Source: Acidimicrobiia bacterium
GTDB lineage: Bacteria; Actinomycetota; Acidimicrobiia; Spongiisociales; ZC4RG35
Length of the DNA: 64,000 bases
NCBI GenBank assembly: GCA_028285585.1
Contig: JANQOU010000005.1
Location: 1-64,000 of the forward strand
Direction of reading: 5' to 3'
Below the pieces are notes generated by a model. It was not told the DNA's origin. It searched no databases and saw nothing but the letters and a program-made list of their open reading frames with translations. This document shows positions 1 to 12,292 of the stretch, piece by piece; the first letter of the stretch is position 1, and every line of letters begins with the position of its first letter. The position numbers and the translations under genes are program-made.

Positions 1-1
1 C

Positions 2-496
2 AAGGGTGAAGTTCGCGACTCGAAGATTGTCGCCTCTGCGACGTGGGGTGAGTTGGAGAACGTGAGCCCGCTCGAGACTGCGAGGTTCATCTCTCAAACA
101 CCGATGCACTTCCGGAGCAAGCGCCGCACGATCCTTGAGCCTGACTCCAATCTGTTGTTTGGGAGTGTATTGAGGCGATGCTCCGATCTGCCGAGCCTCG
201 AAGGTCTCGACTTGAGGTCGATTCGTTTTGGAACCGAGCTCGACGGCGCTTCAGAAACCACAACCGGGCCAGGGCGCTACGACCACACTCTTGCACGAAG
301 GGTCGCTGGTCGCGTTGCAGCGTGGGAAGGCACTGTGACTGTCAATGTCCAGGAGGCTTCGAGCGATCAAAGAAGGTCACTCACAACCCTCGCTCTTCTC
401 GCCGAGTTCAGCGGTGTGGGTGCCGATACGACGGCGGGGTTTGGTGCTGTTCGTGTAGATGTCTCTGATGCGCTTCCAGCAGAGGCCTCTCCTTGA
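2..496 (+). CDS. cas6: Cas6 CRISPR RNA endoribonuclease, 3' part (cut by window edge)
   Basis: The frame is open from base 2, so the gene starts left of the window; about 164 C-terminal residues are visible. They carry the RAMP-type glycine-rich loop near the C-terminus (GVGADTTAGFGAV), preceded by the segment LLFGSVLRRC that is typical of Cas6. Cas6 cuts the CRISPR transcript inside each repeat and leaves the 8-nt 5' handle, here ATTGAAAC. The stop codon overlaps the next ATG as TGATG, so translation is probably coupled to the RT-Cas1 gene. In some relatives Cas6, RT and Cas1 form one polypeptide; here Cas6 is a separate chain in a different reading frame. The active-site region is outside the window, so catalytic residues cannot be checked. 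Confidence 0.85.
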   Translation, partial: KGEVRDSKIVASATWGELENVSPLETARFISQTPMHFRSKRRTILEPDSNLLFGSVLRRCSDLPSLEGLDLRSIRFGTELDGASETTTGPGRYDHTLARRVAGRVAAWEGTVTVNVQEASSDQRRSLTTLALLAEFSGVGADTTAGFGAVRVDVSDALPAEASP

Positions 497-2379
497 TGAG
501 CTCGTTCCTCCAGCGCACTATCGAGCCGCGCAATCTCTTCGACGCCTTCGAGACTGTCCGACGGAGTGATGAGGCAGATGGGCGATCAACCCGACAGTTG
601 CTCAAGATGCTCAGTGACCCGTCTGCTCACCTCGATAATCTAGCCGGCCAACTCACTACCGGTGCGTATCGGCCCGAGCCGCTTTGGCGTGTTGACATCG
701 CTGACGGCGAGGATTCCACAAGAAGTCTGTCCATTCCTTCTTTCACGGACCGGGTGGTTGAACGGGCGATCTACCAGGTTCTCGTTCCTGAATTGGACGC
801 TGAGTTCTTTCCTTCGCCATTCGGTTATCGGGTCGGCATTGGTGTCGACGACGCAGTGGGCGCGATAGCCGAGGCACGTGACCGTGGTGGGTATCTCCAT
901 GTTGCTCGCTTTGACTTCGAGAATTGCTTCGAGAATATTGACCGGAACAGGTTGGTGGAGATGCTATCTGAGGTCGTCGACGACGAATGGCTCCTAGATC
1001 TCATCGGAAAGCTCTTGACGAGAACGGTGGCCAATCGACGCGGGCGTCCGGCCTTGGACGGCCTCGCCCAAGGGTCTCCGTTGTCGCCGCTTCTCGCGAA
1101 CTTCTATCTCCACAAGTTTGACGAGGCGATGTTTCGCCGCGGGTTTCGTGTGATCCGATATGCGGACGACGCCACCGTCTTGTCGTTCTCCAAGAGTGAA
1201 GCCTCGTACGCCTTGAGATCTGCACAAGTGGAAGCAGGGAATCTCGGGCTGACTCTCAATGAGGAGGAGACCACTGTGGCCGATTTTGACCAAGGATTCG
1301 ATTTTCTCGGCGTTGACTTCAGTCGACGAATACCACCTTGGGATGAGGACCGTGAGTTGACAACGCCCAGTCGGCGCAGTCTGTTCGTCACCGAGCAGAA
1401 CTCCTACCTGGCCTTGCAGAGAGGTCAGGTCATAGTCCTGAGCGGCGATGTTCAGCTCATGGCCGCCCCGATATCGCTCATTCGACAGATAGTCGTGTTT
1501 GGTCGAGTGCAGATGAGCCCATGGCTTCGGACTCAGGCACTGTCTTTGGGTATCGAACTGGTATTTCTCTCTCGTACCGGCCGCTACTTGGGCTCAGCTG
1601 CGGGTGATCGGCATTCTTCCGATGACGTGTTGCCGGCTCAGCTGGCCGCTATCGCCGAATTGGGAGTGACCGTAGCCCTCTCTAGGCGATTCGTCGCCGG
1701 CAAGATCGCCAACATGAGGGCACTGATGGTGAGAAGGGGGCAAGCGACGAGCGCAACTGAAGAGATTCTGGTGGCTACCCAGAAGCTGGCGGCTGCCCGA
1801 CGTCGTGTTCTCCGAGCTACCAACTTGGACGTCATACGTGGCATCGAAGGGTCAGCTACCAAGCGCTACTGGAAGGTGTTCGGCGGCTTGCTCGGGGACA
1901 ATGCCAACTTCGAGGGTCGTTCGCGTCGTCCACCTCGAGACCCGGTCAATTCACTCCTCAGCTTTGGTTATGCGGTGCTTCTGCCAGAAGTAGAGGGTGC
2001 TTGCCGAACAGCAGGACTCGACCCTCGCTACGGTTTCTTGCATCCAGTCGGTCGCAACCGCCCTGCGATGGCGCTCGACTTGATTGAAGAGTTCAGGACG
2101 TTGATTGTCGATACAACGGTGCTGACAGCTTTCAACCGCGGGATCATCAAACCGGACAGAGACTTCAAGATGACCAAGGCCGGTGCCTGTCGCATCTCCA
2201 ACGATGAAGCGAGAAAGGCGTTTCTCGGCGCGCTAGAGAAGAGGATGTTGACACGATTCGCCCATACCCCGAGTGGTGTGCGAACGTCATACCGACGCGC
2301 CCTTCACCTCCAGTCGCGCCAGTTGGCGACGGTGTTGCTCGGACTCAGAACCCAGTATGACCCGGTGATGTGGCGGTGA
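496..2379 (+). CDS. cas1: Reverse transcriptase-Cas1 fusion (CRISPR spacer integrase)
   Basis: A 627-residue fusion. The N-terminal half is a group II intron-like reverse transcriptase: metal-binding Asp near residue 140 (RFDFENCF), the QGSPLSPLLANFYL motif near 192 and the catalytic YADD at 222-225. Cas1 starts near residue 296 (LFVTEQ) and keeps Glu451 (GIEGSATKRYW), His516 (GFLHPVGRNRP) and Asp528 (ALDLIEEF), so both enzymes look active. Cas1 integrates spacers with Cas2; in characterised RT-Cas1 systems the RT allows uptake of spacers from RNA. ATG 496 is chosen because it forms TGATG with the cas6 stop; a TTG at 493 is in the same frame. The gene overlaps cas2 by 10 bases. RT-Cas1 usually accompanies type III effectors, which would lie left of the window. 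Confidence 0.95.
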   Translation: MSSFLQRTIEPRNLFDAFETVRRSDEADGRSTRQLLKMLSDPSAHLDNLAGQLTTGAYRPEPLWRVDIADGEDSTRSLSIPSFTDRVVERAIYQVLVPELDAEFFPSPFGYRVGIGVDDAVGAIAEARDRGGYLHVARFDFENCFENIDRNRLVEMLSEVVDDEWLLDLIGKLLTRTVANRRGRPALDGLAQGSPLSPLLANFYLHKFDEAMFRRGFRVIRYADDATVLSFSKSEASYALRSAQVEAGNLGLTLNEEETTVADFDQGFDFLGVDFSRRIPPWDEDRELTTPSRRSLFVTEQNSYLALQRGQVIVLSGDVQLMAAPISLIRQIVVFGRVQMSPWLRTQALSLGIELVFLSRTGRYLGSAAGDRHSSDDVLPAQLAAIAELGVTVALSRRFVAGKIANMRALMVRRGQATSATEEILVATQKLAAARRRVLRATNLDVIRGIEGSATKRYWKVFGGLLGDNANFEGRSRRPPRDPVNSLLSFGYAVLLPEVEGACRTAGLDPRYGFLHPVGRNRPAMALDLIEEFRTLIVDTTVLTAFNRGIIKPDRDFKMTKAGACRISNDEARKAFLGALEKRMLTRFAHTPSGVRTSYRRALHLQSRQLATVLLGLRTQYDPVMWR

Positions 2380-2648
2380 AGTGGGTCGTCGCATACGATA
2401 TTGCGGACGATCGTCGGCGCGCCCAGATTTCCACTCTGCTCTACCACATCGGTTGGCGAATCCAATACTCGATCTTTGAAGTCGAGTTGACCGCTGAGGA
2501 GTTCGCATCGCTACTGGGTGATCTGACTGCCGTCATGGATGAGCTTCGTGACAGGATGCACCTGTTTCCTGCTTGCAAGTGCCGTCGGGAGAGGGTGATG
2601 CTTGGGCAGGCCGAGTTACCTTCGGAGCAACTGTTCTCTGTCGTGTGA
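2370..2648 (+). CDS. cas2: Cas2 CRISPR adaptation protein
   Basis: A 92-residue Cas2, the usual length. It has the ferredoxin-like first strand WVVAYDIADDRRR with the conserved Asp of the family, followed by a helix and the WRIQYSIFEVEL strand. Cas2 dimers bridge two Cas1 dimers in the integration complex. The GTG at 2370 overlaps the end of the RT-Cas1 gene by 10 bases; a second GTG at 2376 would also fit. The CRISPR leader and array follow 211 bases downstream in the same direction, so cas6, RT-cas1 and cas2 form one adaptation and processing operon next to their array. Confidence 0.93.
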   Translation: MAVKWVVAYDIADDRRRAQISTLLYHIGWRIQYSIFEVELTAEEFASLLGDLTAVMDELRDRMHLFPACKCRRERVMLGQAELPSEQLFSVV

Positions 2649-2859
2649 TGTCTGGGTTGGTGATCATGTCCCCCAGTCCAGCCACAAGATCTAGTGGTGT
2701 CCGCGTCTTTGCGCGACGACTTGTTGAAGCGTGTAGCCGTTTGACCAGGGGGTTTGACGCTCAGCTGCTGGCACGAGATGTGTTGAGCGTGGCAGAAAGC
2801 GGCGGTTCGTGATGATGGGTCTCATACCTCCAGGTCAGGCATAGCCGAATTGGGGTAGA
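2649..2859 (+). promoter_or_regulatory. CRISPR leader region
   Basis: The 211 bases between the cas2 stop and the first repeat hold no convincing gene. Their position next to cas2, on the side opposite the decayed last repeat, marks them as the leader, where the array promoter and the integration-guiding sequence should lie. A direct repeat GTTTGAC occurs twice around 2738-2760. No clear -35/-10 pair could be picked by eye. Confidence 0.65.
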
Positions 2860-3889
2860 GTCACGCACAAGGAGCTCGAGGCGAGAGCATTGAAACTCCT
2901 CGCGACAACGCCACCTCAGCGTTAAAAAGTCACGCACAAGGAGCTCGAAGCGAGAGCATTGAAACGCCTTGGCGGCGGTGAGATCATTGATGGTCCGGTC
3001 ACGCACAAGGAGCTCGAAGCGAGAGCATTGAAACGAACAACACAGCCAGCCCAAACACGATGAATACCGGTCACGCACAAGGAGCTCGAAGCGAGAGCAT
3101 TGAAACGAGTCGAAATCCGGGTTTTGATAAACCCGGGCTGGCCGTCACGCACAAGGAGCTCGAAGCGAGAGCATTGAAACTTGAGCCGCCTCGAGAGCGT
3201 GACCGTCGTTGATCTGCTCGTCACTGACAAGGAGCTCGAAGCGAGAGCATTGAAACATGTCACGCTTGCCGGTGTACCAGACGATGAGTCACTGACAAGG
3301 AGCTCGAAGTGAGAGCATTGAAACTGGTTGGGCCTCGCTCGTGGTCGGCGACGTGGTCACTGACAAGGAGCTCGAAGCGAGAGCATTGAAACCTGAAGGA
3401 TGCCGGTGCTGTGGCGTACATGTCGCTAGTCACTGACAAGGAGCTCGAAGCGAGAGCATTGAAACCTGGACCCTCCGGTGACCACTGCCAGTATCAAGTC
3501 ACTGACAAGGAGCTCGAAGCGAGAGCATTGAAACTGACGAAAAATCGCCACGACGGCGGCAGAGCCAAGCCAAGTCACTGACAAGGAGCTCGAAGCGAGA
3601 GCATTGAAACTCCATCTCATTCCTCCTTTCTGTCCGGTTTGGAGTCACTGACAAGGAGCTCGAAGCGAGAGCATTGAAACCCGTCTTGTGCGATTCCCCA
3701 TATGCCCAAGAGTCACTGACAAGGAGCTCGAAGCGAGAGCATTGAAACTCGAGGACGCTGAACGACGTTCTCCGTCCTCGTCGTCGTCACTGACAAGGAG
3801 CTCGAAGCGAGAGCATTGAAACTGGCCTTTGTCGGCCCGATTTGTACCACCAGTCACTGACAAGGAGCTCGAAGCAGACTCACTGCTAG
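2860..3889 (+). CRISPR. CRISPR array, 14 full 37-bp repeats plus one truncated, 14 spacers
   Basis: Repeats start at 2860, 2929, 2998, 3070, 3144, 3220, 3288, 3356, 3429, 3498, 3574, 3644, 3712 and 3786; a decayed fifteenth starts at 3853 and matches only to 3875. Each is 37 bp, contains AAGGAGCTCGAAGCGAGAGC and ends ATTGAAAC. The 3' ATTGAAAC handle and the decayed right end fix transcription as left to right. CTCG-AAG-CGAG can form a small hairpin just before the expected Cas6 cut. Repeats 1-5 begin GTCACGCACAAGG; repeats 6-15 begin GTCACTGACAAGG. Repeat 1 has an extra A-to-G at position 21 and repeat 7 a C-to-T at position 23 that leaves a G-U pair in the hairpin. Spacers range from 30 to 39 bp, a spread common in type III-linked arrays. 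No spacer matches elsewhere in the window by eye. Confidence 0.98.
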
Positions 3890-4019: not shown

Positions 4020-4169
4020 ATGGCATCCGAGAAGTGCGTCGTGTGCGGCGGAACTGGGGTCTGTCAGAACTGTCGCGGTGACTATGTCAAGCGGAAGTGC
4101 CCTGTTTGCAGTAGTCCGAATGACGGGAAGTGCCCGCGTTGTAAGGGCTCTGGAAGGGAACCCTCATAG
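4020..4169 (+). CDS. Small DnaJ-type zinc-finger protein
   Basis: A 49-residue protein starting at ATG 4020, behind GGAGG eight bases upstream. It has four Cys pairs in the style of the DnaJ cysteine-rich domain: CVVC-GGTG, CQNC-RG, CPVC and CPRC-KGSG. This should bind two zinc ions. There is no J domain, so it is not a full DnaJ chaperone; stand-alone cysteine-rich modules of this kind have no fixed function. The reading frame continues upstream to 3906, but that part crosses the post-array region and has no recognisable content. It lies between the CRISPR array and the convergent four-gene operon, and no functional link to either can be claimed. Confidence 0.7.
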   Translation: MASEKCVVCGGTGVCQNCRGDYVKRKCPVCSSPNDGKCPRCKGSGREPS

Positions 4170-4242: not shown

Positions 4243-5541
4243 TCAGCCGGGTCCTCTGGGGGATGGCTCTCTCAACGGCGACACAGTTATGGAATCGGCG
4301 TTGATATCTGGTGGTAATTGCCCGACTCTCCATCCTTCACTCGTTGTTTCGCAGTAGTAGTAGCGGCGACCTTCGTAAACGACAAAGACGCCTTCTACCT
4401 CTGTTGGCGCAGCGATGCCAAGTGCCGCATGTCCCGGTGTCAGCAGAGGCAGAACTTCGTGTCCGAGGCGACGGAGAACCGCCGCTGCCAGGATTGTCGT
4501 GTCCTCGCAGTCACCGGTTTCCTCGTGGATGGTCTCGATCGGGTAGCGCCAATACTCGGGGTGGTCGGTCGTTTCTGCGTCAAGCGTGTAGTCCATCGAT
4601 TGGGCGAAGGCGAGGACGGCAGCAGATTCTTGAAGGCTGGTGTAGCCGAGGTCATTGCTGATTCGCCGGATCGCCGAGGCGCTCTGGTCGACCTCGCCCG
4701 TGGCGCCTGCCACGATCCAGGGCGAGAAGTCAGGGAGTGTCAGGTCTGCTGGTGCGATCGGGTTCATCGACTGCATCTGGAGGAACCGCTCCGTGTCTAC
4801 TTCAACCCTGATCGAGAACCGATCGTTCACTCCTCCCCAGGTGACATCCCACTCAAAAGAGTGGGTCGCGTAGCTGCCATCTTCGAGTTCGGTGATCAGG
4901 TCAGGGACCAGCGGGAGATCGTCTAGGAGCCGTCGCGGCGTGTTCGGCGTAGCGAGCAGAATCAGGAAACTGACGGCGGCAAGTAGCATCAGAGGACGGA
5001 GTGCTGGATCGTTCCAGAACAAGATGAGCCCAGCAACGGAAGCACCCCATGTAAACCGTTCGAACCAGATCAATCCGACTCTGCTGGCGATTCGCTCGAA
5101 GAAGCGGGCAACAGCACCTTCGACGTCGCTTCTGATGATTGCCCTCAGCAACAGCGCTACGCCCACAGCCGACCCGTAGATAGCGAGTTGGAACTGGCCT
5201 TCGGACAGTTCGAGCCAGTTGGGCCAGGGGGCTAGATACCAAAAGGCCACCGCTGCTCCGGATCCGATCATCAGGAGGATCGCACGGCCAGGGGTAGGTC
5301 TCGGATCTATGGGAACTTTGGGTGCCCTCTGAAAGATCCGGGCCCAAGCGGCGAGGAGCGCCTGGACCGCACGGCCCAGCCATCCTCTGATCGAGACCAA
5401 CAGGCGCTTCAGGGCTTCGGTCGGTGGCCTGAACAGTCCGGCGACCAAAGCCGACATGTGCTGGAGAATCGACTTGACCACTCTCCAAGTCCCGAGGAAC
5501 ACCGTCTTGAGAAACTCGCGGATGGCACGAATGGCCCTCAT
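4243..5541 (-). CDS. Membrane protein with transglutaminase-like Cys-His-Glu domain
   Basis: 432 residues. An amphipathic N-terminal part of about 80 residues is followed by hydrophobic segments near 87-103, 117-135, 160-177 and 182-198, then a soluble C-terminal domain. That domain has the transglutaminase/cysteine-peptidase-like pattern GDCEDTTILAAAVLR (Cys345), TPGHAALGI (His371) and YYYCETT (Glu398). The fold can cross-link, hydrolyse or bind peptides; which one applies here is unknown. It is the last gene of a four-gene operon and its ATG overlaps the stop of the preceding gene by 4 bases (ATGA). Its partner genes encode a VWA protein, a tubulin-like protein and another membrane protein, so a role in a membrane-bound complex is inferred. 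Confidence 0.8.
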   Translation of the reverse strand: MRAIRAIREFLKTVFLGTWRVVKSILQHMSALVAGLFRPPTEALKRLLVSIRGWLGRAVQALLAAWARIFQRAPKVPIDPRPTPGRAILLMIGSGAAVAFWYLAPWPNWLELSEGQFQLAIYGSAVGVALLLRAIIRSDVEGAVARFFERIASRVGLIWFERFTWGASVAGLILFWNDPALRPLMLLAAVSFLILLATPNTPRRLLDDLPLVPDLITELEDGSYATHSFEWDVTWGGVNDRFSIRVEVDTERFLQMQSMNPIAPADLTLPDFSPWIVAGATGEVDQSASAIRRISNDLGYTSLQESAAVLAFAQSMDYTLDAETTDHPEYWRYPIETIHEETGDCEDTTILAAAVLRRLGHEVLPLLTPGHAALGIAAPTEVEGVFVVYEGRRYYYCETTSEGWRVGQLPPDINADSITVSPLREPSPRGPG

Positions 5542-7556
5542 GGCGTCGGCTCCCGATCGGGTGACAGTCGGTACAGGTGCACTGTTGCAGCGAACCCCGC
5601 GGCGTGGGTTCGTCTGGTGTCGGTGAGTTGCGGCATAACTCCTGTGGCCACGTCACCTTCTTCCGGAATCAAGAGGTTTGCTGTCCCCTCGTCCGGAGCC
5701 ACGAGGTAGTGGGCAATGGAGGCGGTGCTCCCCCCAGCCGGTGTCAGATCCGTTGCCAGGACGCCCAGGGCAGTTTCGAGAGTCTGACCTCCTTCAGCGA
5801 GCGCTTCACCGAGTGTTTCCCAGCGTGCTGCCCGCGGTTCGACAAGCTGGGAGGACCACTGTTCGACAAGCTGCCGCTTCGCAGAGAGAGTGAGGTCGCT
5901 AGAAAGGAGGTTCTCTCGTACGACAGCGATGAGCCCACGAGTCGCCGCGGCTACGTCGATGGGGCGAGTCGCCTCGAACAGCGCTGCTGTCGGCACGTCG
6001 TCGGCGGTTGGCACGTCGATGGCGAATCTGCTTGTTGTGACGGCATCGAATCTTCGTAGATCTGACCGGTCTTGGAAGGTAGAACGGGCGTGTTTTAGCA
6101 GTGCTTTCAGCCATCCAAGCCAATCAGCGACCGAGTCGGCATTAGGTGGAGGAGAGTCTTCGTAGTCGCCGTGAGCTTCGCCAACCCAGTCCCTGAGCCA
6201 GCTCAGCAGGGTGAGGTGCTCGGTGACAGCTTTCGCTTCGGTTGAGTCGACCAATTGCTGTTCCATACGTCGTGCCAGTCGGTCCCTGAGTTGGATGGTT
6301 CGACGGAGCCGGCGACGGTAGAGGCTCCACCCGATCAGGATGACTGCTGTCGAGGCAAACCCGGGCCAGCGGGAGACTGTCACATCCACCGGAATGGTTC
6401 CGGTTCCCACCGCGGCGGACAAGCCCACGAGAATCCAAAGAGCAACCATTGCCACTCGTGTGGCGACAGCAGAAGCGAACGGCAGCCATCGCAGTAGTTG
6501 GCGCAGCTTCTGTCGGTCCGTGGTGAAGTCGGCGATTGGAGAATCCAGCTGGTTGCTCTTGATGCTTGCGATTGCTCGGTCGAGGGCCGATCGCATGCCT
6601 GAGCAGTAGGCGGCTGCCTCCGAGACGTTCTTGGTCGCCTCGATCTGAGCAAGAATCTCAGTGGCTATCAGGAACCGCAGATCGCTGAACCGCTCGTCTC
6701 GTGTGTATGCAATCCGCGAGTTAATGAACGGAACTTCGTTCAGGGTGGCCAGGTCGTAGCGGGTGGTGAGCGTTTCAGACCAGGACTGGATGGGAATCGA
6801 ATCGAAGTCGATGTCAAAGAGCCGCAGTTTGGCGAGGAGTGACCCACCGGAAGGACTGTCGAGCAGCTTTTGCCATGACTCATCGTCACTCAGTTGCAGG
6901 TCGTCGATCCATTGAGTGCCCAGTTCGTAGGCAACGTCGGTTTTTGCGTTTGCAAGGAGTTCATCCAGGGCAACCATGGCCTGAGCTGCGGCATCCGCCA
7001 GCAGAAGTCGCCTAACGCTGTAGGTGATGGACGCCGCACTCCACATCCAGGCACCGCCCCTTTGTCCTATCTCTGACTCGAGTCGGCTCGAGGCCAGGGT
7101 CGCGGCTGCGTCTGCTGCGAATGCGAACTCTTCTTCAGGAGTATGGGCCACTGATTCATTGGTCGATGCCGCGGTGACTACGACCCCGCGCATTTGATCG
7201 CTCAATTCAGTGATCGCCGACATCTCGACGGCGTCCAGCGTCCGGCCGGTGAGGATGATCGCCCATTGACGAAGATCGATCCCCAGATACGCCGATCGGA
7301 TCTCGTGAGCTATAGCGCTTGTGCTGGCTGTGGCTTTTACTCGAGAGTCATCGCTGTCCACCTCAAGGAAGTGGATCAGGAGCAGGGGGTCACCCTGTCC
7401 CACATGCGCGACGATGCGCTCAACCGAAGCTATTGAGAAGCTCTCGACCGTGTCGGAATGAACGACCCCATCAAGGTCGTGGGCCAACCACTCGAAGCGC
7501 GTCGCCGCGTCCGTCGCAGCAGCGCCGTGTGTGATGGCGATCGTCGGCGTCGTCAT
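5538..7556 (-). CDS. Two-TM protein of unknown family in tubulin-like operon
   Basis: 672 residues, not recognised as any named family. An N-terminal region of about 355 residues, rich in Ala, Ser and acidic residues, is followed by two membrane spans near 362-384 and 397-413, then a basic stretch (YRRRLRRTIQLRDRLARR) and a mostly helical C-terminal part of about 250 residues. There is no signal peptide, so both large domains are probably cytoplasmic, joined by a membrane hairpin. It starts 6 bases after the tubulin-like gene and overlaps the transglutaminase-like gene by 4 bases, so it is almost certainly co-expressed with both. A plausible inference is a membrane anchor or adaptor for the tubulin-like protein. 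Confidence 0.75.
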   Translation of the reverse strand: MTTPTIAITHGAAATDAATRFEWLAHDLDGVVHSDTVESFSIASVERIVAHVGQGDPLLLIHFLEVDSDDSRVKATASTSAIAHEIRSAYLGIDLRQWAIILTGRTLDAVEMSAITELSDQMRGVVVTAASTNESVAHTPEEEFAFAADAAATLASSRLESEIGQRGGAWMWSAASITYSVRRLLLADAAAQAMVALDELLANAKTDVAYELGTQWIDDLQLSDDESWQKLLDSPSGGSLLAKLRLFDIDFDSIPIQSWSETLTTRYDLATLNEVPFINSRIAYTRDERFSDLRFLIATEILAQIEATKNVSEAAAYCSGMRSALDRAIASIKSNQLDSPIADFTTDRQKLRQLLRWLPFASAVATRVAMVALWILVGLSAAVGTGTIPVDVTVSRWPGFASTAVILIGWSLYRRRLRRTIQLRDRLARRMEQQLVDSTEAKAVTEHLTLLSWLRDWVGEAHGDYEDSPPPNADSVADWLGWLKALLKHARSTFQDRSDLRRFDAVTTSRFAIDVPTADDVPTAALFEATRPIDVAAATRGLIAVVRENLLSSDLTLSAKRQLVEQWSSQLVEPRAARWETLGEALAEGGQTLETALGVLATDLTPAGGSTASIAHYLVAPDEGTANLLIPEEGDVATGVMPQLTDTRRTHAAGFAATVHLYRLSPDREPTP

Positions 7557-7562
7557 TGTTGA

Positions 7563-10500
7563 CTAACTGAGAATGGCCTGCTGTCGAAGTTCCACCTGCC
7601 AGGATGCGAGGCCGTCGAACACATGCTCAAGCACTTCGACATCCTTCGGACGTTGAGTGTTTGCGTCGATGAGGGCTTCCAGTTTCGTCTCCATGAAGTC
7701 ATCGACCTCTTCGAGGAGTCGTTCGACCCCGAGGCAACGCTTGGCCCATTTGGCGGCGGCTTCGATGCTTGTTCGGAGTCCATGGTTATCCCCGACCGCT
7801 TCGAGCATCGAAGGCCAGCTCTCGCCTAGCGGGATGTCATCTCCGATAGCCCTAGCGCGTCCATCTCGGAAGTCCAGCTGTCTGCCCAGCCAACCACCGT
7901 CGTCGTCGACCCTCAGGTGAGCGACAACTGGGTTGGTGCGGGAGTGATCGTAAAACTCCTCGAGTCCAGTTGACTCGTCCCCGAGGAGGTCTTTGATGAT
8001 GAGCGCTTGCCCCACCAGACGTGCCACATCCTCTACCTCGAAATAGAGGGGCACCAGCGTTTCGAGTTTCTCGGCGAATCGCCGATCGATGTGTACCGGT
8101 GGATGGCTATAGGGGGCGGCCTCGCGGCGTTGCGATACCATCTCATACGCAGCTTTCCAGTTGACGACGTCGTGGAGAGCGTGCACCGGGACCGCCCACT
8201 CGACGCTAAGAGCAACGACCCTTTCAGGATCGGGGATCGGATGCAGCTTGGTATTTGGCGGCAGCGACCCCTTGATCTGATCGGCTAGTCCTTCAGGATG
8301 TGCGATCACCGTTGTAACGGTGGGGGTTCTTGCCGTCCCCGCTCGGAACCGACCCTCTTCCCAGCTCCAGCAGATCGATCGGGACAGGACTGCCAGACCC
8401 GAAAAGGCCCGGGCCAGTTGGAGGGGCTCGGTTTCAGCCGAGGGAAGATCGCTGGGAAGGCGATTTTTCCTAAGGACCCCTTCGCCGGTCTCGAGAGCGC
8501 GCCGCCGAGCCTCCTCGACCAGAGCCAGAGTGAGCGACTTCTCGGCCGCCGACTGTTCAGCAGGGTCAGAAGAACCGAGAGAGAAGAAGGCACGGTTGGC
8601 CCGGTCGTCTGCCCAACGTTTGATGAAGGTGTTCAGATCCTCACCCTGAAGGCCGCTGTAGTGTTCCTTCTTGATGTCTTCAAACAAACTCCTCGCCAAG
8701 GTTGACTCTTCGATCTCCGGCTGAGAGTCGGCCGGGATCAGCGTCGTCGTCGCTTCCGGCCCGGCGTCCTTTCCAACAAGTGTGTCGTCGGTCCAACGCG
8801 CCTTGGCATCATCCGAGATCGCGCGCAAACGGGTGACTGACCTGTCCAGTTCAAGTCGTAGCGTTCCAACGCGCTCGAACATCTCAGTAGCAAGGCTGTT
8901 ACGAGCCGCTGCGAGTTCAGCGTCATGAATAGCCCTTGCCCAGCTCTGAATCGATTGTCCGAGCAAGGTAGCAATGTCCTCTTCGGTCGAGGGCGTGCCC
9001 GTCAGGGAGGCTATCTTGGCAGCCACCTTCTCATGCAATGCTCGGTTCGAGGCCTTCTGGAGATTCTGCACCAGTTGGTTGACTCTTGCCTCCGCGCTTA
9101 CCCGCCCGGCGGTGGTCGTCTGAAGACTGGCCTCCGCCTCATACTGCATCGTGCTCAGGTGCCTCTCCAGGAGCTGCAAAATTTCACCCGCGAATAGAAC
9201 CCCGTGTCCAGAGGTGAACACAGACTCGACAACTCGCTGGTCGAACTCTGCTGCCAGACGTCGATGCTGTTCTTCAGTCGACTTGCGAATCGACCGGACT
9301 ACCGACGGTGCCGACCTTTTGATCGACCCGATCAGCTTCTGCGCGGTCTGAACGTCGGCGGTTCGCTCCATCTCCGCCATCCCTTGTTCGGCGTAGTCCA
9401 GGAAATCGAGAACTTCGTCGTCGAACTCGACGCTTTGAGTTTCGATTCCAACAGATGTGGCAGCGTCGATAAGCCTATGTGTGAGTTCATGACTTCTCGC
9501 GATTCCTCGTAGATCTTCGGCATGCTCGAGAAGACCCTGGTTCACATACCAGTCGATATACCGGTGAGTCAGGTGCCGCCGGTAGGTGTCGCCGGGAAAC
9601 ACGACCCTGGCCACACCGAGACTGCAATACCGCCGCGATCTCCGAAAGTCATCCTCCTCCCCCAAAGCACGATCGGTGTTTGTGGAATCTACGCCCACCA
9701 TGGGCATCCCGATGTCGGTCACAAGGAAGTGGTAGATGGCCTCGGCGGTGATCTCGTAGAGGTCGTTGATCCGAGTGAGCTCACCGATTCCTCGCATCGT
9801 GGATCCGACCAGGTAGATTTGCTTGAGAAGGTCTCTGTCGGGGATGTCCGGTCCGCCCGACTCGGCGGATCTGCCGAGGTAGGTGCCTAGCGTTGACCCG
9901 TGGCGAGTGAAGTGGTCGACTTCCCTGAAGTAGGCATAGGCATTGGAATCGTGGGCGACGGCTAGATCTCCACTCCCGACTGTCCTATTGATTGCAGCTC
10001 TAAACGTGCTCGGAAGATACGTGAAGGCGCGAATTTCGGGGTAGTAGCCGCGACCACGAGCCGCAGCCCATGCCGCTAGAACAACGGTAAGGAATCCGGA
10101 ACTGCCGGTCCCGCCGGTCGAACTGTTGACGATGTAGACCGGGATTGTGGGTACGCCTGGGCTCTCACCCCCGCTGCCGAGTGCGCCGTCGATTTTCACC
10201 GCCTCAGTGATTGACGTTTCAATTCGGCGTACCAACTCATCGGAGCCGCGGTGAAACGCCAGTCTGCCGAGCATTCTCTCGCGTTTCAGGCCTTCGGTGA
10301 TCGGTCCCATGGGGACTCGGTAGGCGGGGTCCCACCATTCGTTGAGGAACTGGTTGTGAGGAAGTTGGCCTTGAAGGTACCGGTTGGCATCGAAAGGAAC
10401 CTCTACCAAGTTGAAGAACTCTCCGACTCCAAGTCCAACCCCCTGTGGCAGCGGTGGGTTCTGGTCACCAAGATCGACTGCGTCGATGCCGAGGAACTTG

Positions 10501-10700
10501 ATGGAGTCGATGGCCGCTTGATCGGGTCGTTGGCCACGAAGGGCGGCTCTGACTCGCGAGATCGTCTGGATACCCGATCCGCCGATTCCGATGACGACAG
10601 CGGCCGAAATCGGTGTGAGGTCGTCACCTCCACCCACGCCTCGAACCGTTTGGTCGAGGCCCAGGTAGCCCAAGGCGCTTGCCGGCTTTGCGTAAGTCAT
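7563..10700 (-). CDS. Tubulin/FtsZ-like GTPase-fold protein (Tubulin_2 type)
   Basis: 1045 residues, far longer than FtsZ. The N-terminal third has tubulin-superfamily nucleotide loops: VVIGIGGSG (residues 35-43, T1-like), GIDAVDLGD (71-79, T2-like) and NSSTGGTGSSGF (192-203, the T4 tubulin signature). The rest is a long, largely helical region with charged heptad-like stretches (about 400-650) and a further C-terminal domain of unknown type. Large tubulin-like proteins of this kind have been described next to VWA-domain proteins and proposed as parts of a membrane-remodelling system; no enzymatic role is established. It overlaps the VWA gene by 4 bases and lies 6 bases before the two-TM gene. 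GTP binding and polymerisation are predictions. Confidence 0.85.
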   Translation of the reverse strand: MTYAKPASALGYLGLDQTVRGVGGGDDLTPISAAVVIGIGGSGIQTISRVRAALRGQRPDQAAIDSIKFLGIDAVDLGDQNPPLPQGVGLGVGEFFNLVEVPFDANRYLQGQLPHNQFLNEWWDPAYRVPMGPITEGLKRERMLGRLAFHRGSDELVRRIETSITEAVKIDGALGSGGESPGVPTIPVYIVNSSTGGTGSSGFLTVVLAAWAAARGRGYYPEIRAFTYLPSTFRAAINRTVGSGDLAVAHDSNAYAYFREVDHFTRHGSTLGTYLGRSAESGGPDIPDRDLLKQIYLVGSTMRGIGELTRINDLYEITAEAIYHFLVTDIGMPMVGVDSTNTDRALGEEDDFRRSRRYCSLGVARVVFPGDTYRRHLTHRYIDWYVNQGLLEHAEDLRGIARSHELTHRLIDAATSVGIETQSVEFDDEVLDFLDYAEQGMAEMERTADVQTAQKLIGSIKRSAPSVVRSIRKSTEEQHRRLAAEFDQRVVESVFTSGHGVLFAGEILQLLERHLSTMQYEAEASLQTTTAGRVSAEARVNQLVQNLQKASNRALHEKVAAKIASLTGTPSTEEDIATLLGQSIQSWARAIHDAELAAARNSLATEMFERVGTLRLELDRSVTRLRAISDDAKARWTDDTLVGKDAGPEATTTLIPADSQPEIEESTLARSLFEDIKKEHYSGLQGEDLNTFIKRWADDRANRAFFSLGSSDPAEQSAAEKSLTLALVEEARRRALETGEGVLRKNRLPSDLPSAETEPLQLARAFSGLAVLSRSICWSWEEGRFRAGTARTPTVTTVIAHPEGLADQIKGSLPPNTKLHPIPDPERVVALSVEWAVPVHALHDVVNWKAAYEMVSQRREAAPYSHPPVHIDRRFAEKLETLVPLYFEVEDVARLVGQALIIKDLLGDESTGLEEFYDHSRTNPVVAHLRVDDDGGWLGRQLDFRDGRARAIGDDIPLGESWPSMLEAVGDNHGLRTSIEAAAKWAKRCLGVERLLEEVDDFMETKLEALIDANTQRPKDVEVLEHVFDGLASWQVELRQQAILS

Positions 10701-12292
10701 CGTGGTTCTCCCGTTGATTTGGTGGGTCTCTTTGTCCGTGAACTTGGTTTGGTCAGATACTTCATCCGAGCGTTGCCTAGCCGGTACCGGCCGAATCGGA
10801 TCTCTGCGCTGTCATGTATCTGGCGTTCCCTGAACTTGCTGGCGACCTCGTAGAAAGGTGGTTGTTCAACCGATGCCCAAACATGTCCTGGGTAGCCTCG
10901 CTTGGTGAACAGCCTGAGTCTTGCGTTGCCCGCTAGAGGGATGTTCGTCCCGTCGAGGACCATCCTCTTCCTTCGAAGCTTGATCACCCGTGAATCCTGG
11001 TCGAGGCCGGCTTCTTCGAGTTCAAAGACGCCGACGAGGGATGGGAGCCGCATGAAACGACGATAAAGCCAGATGAGGATCAGAAGTGTCAAGAGTCCTG
11101 CTCCTGCGACGATTGCCGCCTGTGTCACAGTCCATCCGAAGGTTCTCCGGGTCTCCACGAAGCCGGCACCGGTAACTTTCGCACCAAGCGGATGGGCCGT
11201 GACTCTTCCCAGGAGCAACCTGGGCTCGACGGTGTAGTGGGCGTCGATTTCGATGGTGAACTCTTCGGCTTCGGTTGTTGGCGGGATTGTGAAGTGCGGA
11301 GACTGGATCTCGGGTTGGAGCAGGACCGGTATTTCCACACTTCCAGTCGGAGGGATAGAGACGGTGGACTCGCCGATAAGTCGAATGGATACGGGAGTCC
11401 CGTCGCTACCGCGGGCGACTACTCCGTCGATCTCGACGGCTATCGGGAGCTTGTTGAACTCCGAAGTGAGAGTCACTGTGGTCTCGATTGCAGAGGTCAG
11501 GTCGGCAGCGGTGGTCGATCGGAGTCGGACGCCACCGCGATCTAGCTCGTTGTCAACCCGGAATCTGAGCCTTGCCAAACGCGACTGACGAACGGCGTCT
11601 TCAAAGAAGTCCGAGAGCTGGCCTGGGGGCAGACTGATGATCTCTGGGTTCGAGAACACAGACCTGAGGAGTTCAATGTCCGTGCCTTCAACGAGGCCGA
11701 TGCCAAGGACTGTCAAATCGTGTGTTTGCTCAACACGCGTAGCGCGATCACGAAGATTCTCCCAAGACTCACCCGTTTTCTCGGAGTAACCGGAACCGTC
11801 TGGAGGGTCGTGCAAGCCGTCAGTGATAAAGACGACCGTTTGCACGTCGCTGGAGTCGGCCCGTTCGAGTCTCCGTAGAGTCGCATCTATGGCAGAGCCG
11901 ATGTCTGTATGGGTGCCATCCGCGATTTCTGGAGTTGCGCTCCTGGCTGCCGTTCGAGAGTCGAGCTGAAGCGTTCCTTGAAACACAATGTTGGGGTCGG
12001 AGTCGAAGGTCACCACCGACACGAAATCGCCGGCAGGAATCGAGTCGACGAGGACTCCGAAAGAGTCGACTACGGCCGGATAGAGCGGATTGTCGCCTTG
12101 GGACATGCTCCCCGACGTATCGATCACGATGACAAAGTCGGCGGGGAAGTCGCCAACATCGAACAGGTCGAAGAGTTCGTCGAGCGTCTGAGGCTCATGC
12201 TCGGTTGCTGCCGCAGCTGTCGGGGGTAACCCCGCGGCAAACGCGATCGCAGCGATACCGCTTAGCGCCGCGAGCCGCTTCAAACTGCGCAC
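10697..12292 (-). CDS. Exported, membrane-anchored VWA-domain protein
   Basis: 531 residues. A signal peptide (residues 1-28, ending TAAAA) is followed by a von Willebrand A domain with a complete MIDAS: DTSGSMS near 58-64, the TDIGSA Thr and the FITDG Asp. The middle part looks like beta-rich extracellular domains. One membrane span (AAIVAGAGLLTLLILIWLY, about 390-412) is followed by a basic cytoplasmic tail of about 115 residues. The protein therefore joins an outside metal-dependent binding domain to the cytoplasm, where the tubulin-like protein acts. GTG start behind GGAGGG. First gene of the operon; its stop overlaps the next start by 4 bases. Confidence 0.88.
   Translation of the reverse strand: MRSLKRLAALSGIAAIAFAAGLPPTAAAATEHEPQTLDELFDLFDVGDFPADFVIVIDTSGSMSQGDNPLYPAVVDSFGVLVDSIPAGDFVSVVTFDSDPNIVFQGTLQLDSRTAARSATPEIADGTHTDIGSAIDATLRRLERADSSDVQTVVFITDGLHDPPDGSGYSEKTGESWENLRDRATRVEQTHDLTVLGIGLVEGTDIELLRSVFSNPEIISLPPGQLSDFFEDAVRQSRLARLRFRVDNELDRGGVRLRSTTAADLTSAIETTVTLTSEFNKLPIAVEIDGVVARGSDGTPVSIRLIGESTVSIPPTGSVEIPVLLQPEIQSPHFTIPPTTEAEEFTIEIDAHYTVEPRLLLGRVTAHPLGAKVTGAGFVETRRTFGWTVTQAAIVAGAGLLTLLILIWLYRRFMRLPSLVGVFELEEAGLDQDSRVIKLRRKRMVLDGTNIPLAGNARLRLFTKRGYPGHVWASVEQPPFYEVASKFRERQIHDSAEIRFGRYRLGNARMKYLTKPSSRTKRPTKSTGEPR

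Follow-up and report, generated by a model that had tools for sequence, protein, structure and literature searches.

Acquisition of a spacer by a CRISPR array splits the first repeat, the sequence of which passes to the two daughter repeats. Propagation of repeat mutations by duplication has been described for CRISPR arrays (CRISPRDetect, PMC4869251), and repeat mutations have been surveyed on a large scale (Mitrofanov et al., microLife 2026, uqaf050, as referred to by papers citing it). The array described here lies near the start of a stretch of 64,000 nucleotides from an Acidimicrobiia bacterium (GenBank assembly GCA_028285585.1, contig JANQOU010000005.1, positions 1 to 64,000), referred to below as the window. 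Like type III-D systems with an RT-Cas1 fusion (RT-linked type III systems, PMC5513706), it belongs to a locus that unites Csx10, Csx19, Cas10, RAMP genes, Cas6, RT-Cas1, Cas2 and the array; the closest RT-Cas1 homologues found, those of the loci G250 and G589, are about 40% identical, and their loci have near-uniform repeats of another sequence.

The part of the locus between the contig start and the array comprises the following features:

2..496, forward strand, 3' part of cas6, the gene being interrupted by the contig start (PF10040 Cas6, E 6e-11)
496..2379, forward strand, RT-Cas1 fusion gene (PF00078 RVT_1, E 1.4e-25, and PF01867 Cas1, E 6.4e-78, in one frame)
2376..2648, forward strand, cas2, a frame of 90 aa ending at 2648 (PF09827, E 4.3e-15)
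2649..2859, forward strand, leader region of 211 nt from cas2 to repeat 1, assigned by position and array polarity

The reverse transcriptase and Cas1 domains share one open frame with a YxDD motif (YADD, at 1159-1170) and cas2 is adjacent, as in an RT-Cas1 adaptation module. The effector genes are found on another contig of the same genome (G000:C5), the first 99 bases of which are the exact reverse complement of window positions 1-99. This contig bears RAMP genes (TIGR03986, E 1e-60), Csx19 (TIGR03984, E 3.3e-17, above the cut-off), a Csx10-like gene (TIGR02674, E 2.6e-13, below the curated cut-off) and Cas10 (palm domain, E 1.2e-13). Because the 99-base overlap joins the window to these genes, the locus is, judged by its sequence, a type III-D CRISPR-Cas system with an RT-Cas1/Cas2 adaptation module.

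Regarding the surroundings, one of two genes beside cas10 (L018 7840-10893 of contig G000:C5, reverse strand) has a weak Cas_APE2256 match (E 3.4e-4, below the cut-off) and possibly encodes a CARF-type ancillary protein, while the second has no family matches. Directly 3' of the array, window positions 4021-4167 (forward strand) encode a cysteine-rich CxxC peptide of about 48 aa resembling a DnaJ-type zinc ribbon. A run of overlapping or abutting genes adjoins the CRISPR locus at 4243-12292 on the reverse strand, possibly as one functional unit, and encodes a protein weakly matching LapG cysteine proteases, one that belongs to no family, a tubulin-like protein (PF13809, E 1.8e-31) and a protein with a VWA domain. 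Among 395 genomes sampled from the class, a full-length relative of the RT-Cas1 (E <= 1e-60) was detected in the genome of the window and two others, and in no other sampled genome of the same family; this very patchy distribution suggests horizontal transfer.

The array itself (2860-3889) has a repeat length of 37 nt, with 15 repeats separated by 14 spacers of 30-39 nt, and falls into three parts:

2860..3180, forward strand, newer-type repeats 1-5 with spacers 1-4, reading GTCACGCACAAGG, repeat 1 also with A21G
3181..3219, forward strand, spacer 5, between repeat 5 of the new type and repeat 6 of the old type, containing GCGTGAC and CGCCTCGAG
3220..3875, forward strand, older-type repeats 6-15 with spacers 6-14, reading GTCACTGACAAGG

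Reading the array repeat by repeat confirmed the observation of the first-pass annotation that repeats 1-5 and 6-15 differ near their start with a clean boundary: positions 6-7 are GC in repeats 1-5 (starting at 2860, 2929, 2998, 3070 and 3144) and TG in repeats 6-15 (starting from 3220 to 3853). The boundary had been placed between spacers 5 and 6, and is in fact between repeats 5 and 6, across spacer 5. Three features were added to the earlier description, namely that the switch consists of two adjacent substitutions (T6G and G7C), the single-step intermediate of which is absent from the array, that repeat 7 (3288-3324) has a private C23T, and that repeat 15 (from 3853) is broken, retaining nt 1-23 and lacking the remainder. 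The substitution reported at position 21 of repeat 1 is A21G and occurs in no other repeat. The further proposal that repeat 1 has founded another variant finds no backing, as A21G is limited to this repeat and nothing shows a lineage; repeat mutations can stay single, because C23T is private to repeat 7.

Several features support the left side of the array as its leader end, since cas2 and the leader are located there, the ATTGAAAC handle forms the 3' end of the repeat and the broken repeat is at the right. A 3' ATTGAAAC handle is typical of type I and type III crRNAs, and the order cas2, leader, array is common to the homologous loci G250 and G589. The variant repeats are thus contiguous and adjoin the leader. 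Under random placement, five identical double variants would be grouped at an end of a 15-repeat array with a probability of 2/3003, so this position is not attributable to chance.

The pattern is very probably explained by one change to the leader-proximal repeat that every later acquisition duplicated, and this process, put forward in the first-pass annotation, fits the leader-end block and the polarity best. The TG at positions 6-7 of the leader-proximal repeat would have become GC no earlier than the acquisition of spacer 5 but before spacer 4 was added, and the acquisitions of spacers 4 to 1 would each have copied the changed first repeat, giving GC in repeats 1-5. The change presumably arose while repeat 5 was the first repeat, since this is the deepest repeat of the new type, either in the repair step that accompanied the uptake of spacer 5 or later. 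The boundary therefore gives a relative time mark, spacers 5-14 having been acquired before the repeat changed or at the same time and spacers 1-4 later, which could help to order strains of the species as genomes accumulate. That the boundary dates the change had been recognised earlier; the dating was one step off, because both daughters of a split repeat inherit the mutation. What speaks against simple copying is that two bases changed at once, so that either several bases mutated in one event, or two events fell between successive acquisitions, or intermediates were deleted. Homologous repeats (G250, G589 and the KSB1 locus) failed to polarise TG versus GC, their 5' ends being too diverged.

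Regarding crRNA processing, repeat folds were computed for the window, G250 and KSB1 repeats, and a 4-bp stem is present immediately 5' of the 8-nt handle in the repeats of the window (GCTC/GAGC), G250 (GCCC/GGGC), G589 (GCCC/GGGC) and the KSB1 locus (GCAC/GTGC), the third stem pair varying on both sides across these four RT-Cas1 loci. Given this shared position of the stem, GCTC/GAGC (nt 15-18/26-29) is more likely to be the Cas6 stem than CTCG/CGAG, the hairpin suggested before; the accompanying statement that the switch lies outside the stem holds for both candidates. A21 is situated in the loop of the repeat hairpin. As none of the variable sites 6, 7, 21 and 23 falls within the likely Cas6 stem or the 8-nt ATTGAAAC handle, Cas6 cleavage, and with it crRNA processing, is probably retained in both repeat types.

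The double change itself may have been templated, a sub-mechanism of copying that is possible but improbable. The first repeat and spacer 5 would have supplied the two arms of an imperfect inverted repeat (GTCACTG ... GCGTGAC). A template switch during repair synthesis would then have converted the repeat arm to GTCACGC, and later copying would have spread the change. Template switching between the arms of imperfect inverted repeats, by which arms are homogenised, is an established class of mechanism giving multi-base changes (PMC8604942 and PMC3820800). Spacer 5, which adjoins the deepest new-type repeat, contains both GCGTGAC, the inverse of the new GTCACGC, and CGCCTCGAG, an inverted 9-mer with A21G, and a 7-bp stem is possible in the repeat-spacer strand with the new type and impossible with the old type. 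With both strands considered, a genomic segment of 39 nt would hold the inverted 7-mer by chance with a probability of 0.017, and the 7-mer and 9-mer would occur together with a probability of 0.001 in spacer 5 or 0.008 in any of the 14 spacers, these values being post hoc; for none of the 15 other dinucleotides does spacer 5 or spacer 6 contain a match of 7 nt. Spacer 6 (3257-3287), however, holds GTCACGC in direct orientation and spacer 12 (3681-3711) an inverted 8-mer, CGCACAAG, and because these spacers match too, one or more of the spacer matches must be due to chance. The test as a whole was devised post hoc, and flanking spacers were strictly the best template for the observed base in just 15 of 80 other repeat substitutions. 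The idea that flanking spacers template repeat mutations in general was rejected, with no effect among the 80 events. It is doubtful, though conceivable, that spacer 5 templated the TG to GC change of its own repeat, and perhaps the later A21G in repeat 1, so that spacer content would steer repeat evolution; if spacers do act on adjacent repeats in this way, the drift of repeat sequences would be governed by what the spacers contain. This candidate resembles the quasi-palindrome template-switch mutations (PMC8604942 and PMC3820800) in that the first 7 nt of the repeat became the perfect inverse of a spacer segment, and differs from the cases given there in having only 5 bp of prior identity and a loop of about 50 nt.

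A mosaic array, in which the leader-end units of the new type were gained by recombination from the array of a related strain or from a second array since lost, is unlikely. The clean boundary and the joint difference of two bases without an intermediate would suit such an exchange; the remaining 35 repeat positions are nevertheless the same in both types, private single changes aside, and no other copy of the repeat was detected in the 2.59 Mb genome (allowing <=3 mismatches in 30 nt), the assembly of which comprises 14 contigs and is estimated to be 96.85% complete, so that recombination would be without a donor in the genome. The repeat was likewise absent from all 119 related genomes, sampled from the family and order, as well as from genome-contig and viral-contig collections, IMG/VR and plasmids, no strain-level relative came to light in these searches, and a recombination origin of the new-type units is thus unsupported. 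Regarding spacer targets, no convincing self-targeting match was found in the genome itself, no protospacers for the cores of spacers 1, 2, 5 and 6 were found in IMG/VR, and phage records gave weak matches at chance level, none of them convincing.

It is very unlikely that the reverse transcriptase of RT-Cas1 accounts for the change by filling repeat gaps in an error-prone manner, with faster mutation and spread of repeats in RT-linked arrays. RT-Cas1/Cas2 or host Pol I have indeed been proposed as gap fillers (PMC11014452), but variant inner repeats numbered 9 of 230 in RT-linked arrays (at least half of them from the present array) as against 44 of 804 in others, and G250 (26/26 repeats identical) and KSB1 (12/12) are uniform RT-linked arrays. 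RT-driven repeat mutagenesis is therefore unsupported, the other RT-linked arrays showing at least the uniformity of the remaining arrays. Least credible is an in silico fusion of the arrays of two strains, for although the assembly is fragmented (14 contigs) and the window begins at a contig end, the exact 99 bp contig overlap suggests a final k-mer of about 99, a false join would require a shared 99-mer, and the repeat-spacer-repeat unit over the boundary is longer than that (113 nt), with all spacers unique.

Inheritance of a changed leader-proximal repeat also has parallels in other arrays. Among about 20 unrelated cas1-linked arrays of the same phylum, four (G170, G476, G458 and G291) have inherited blocks of variant repeats, in each case confined to the oldest repeats. 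In G170, for instance, A37C marks the last 8 repeats of a total of 38, and in G476, T26C is present in almost every one of the 12 oldest repeats of a 51-repeat array. The inherited block of the present array illustrates well a process that is known and ordinary. As in propagated repeat mutations described previously (PMC4869251; uqaf050, through citing papers), the variant block is contiguous and located at one array end; unlike the cases presented in these sources, it involves two adjacent substitutions at once, occupies the leader-proximal third of the array and belongs to an RT-Cas1 type III-D locus.
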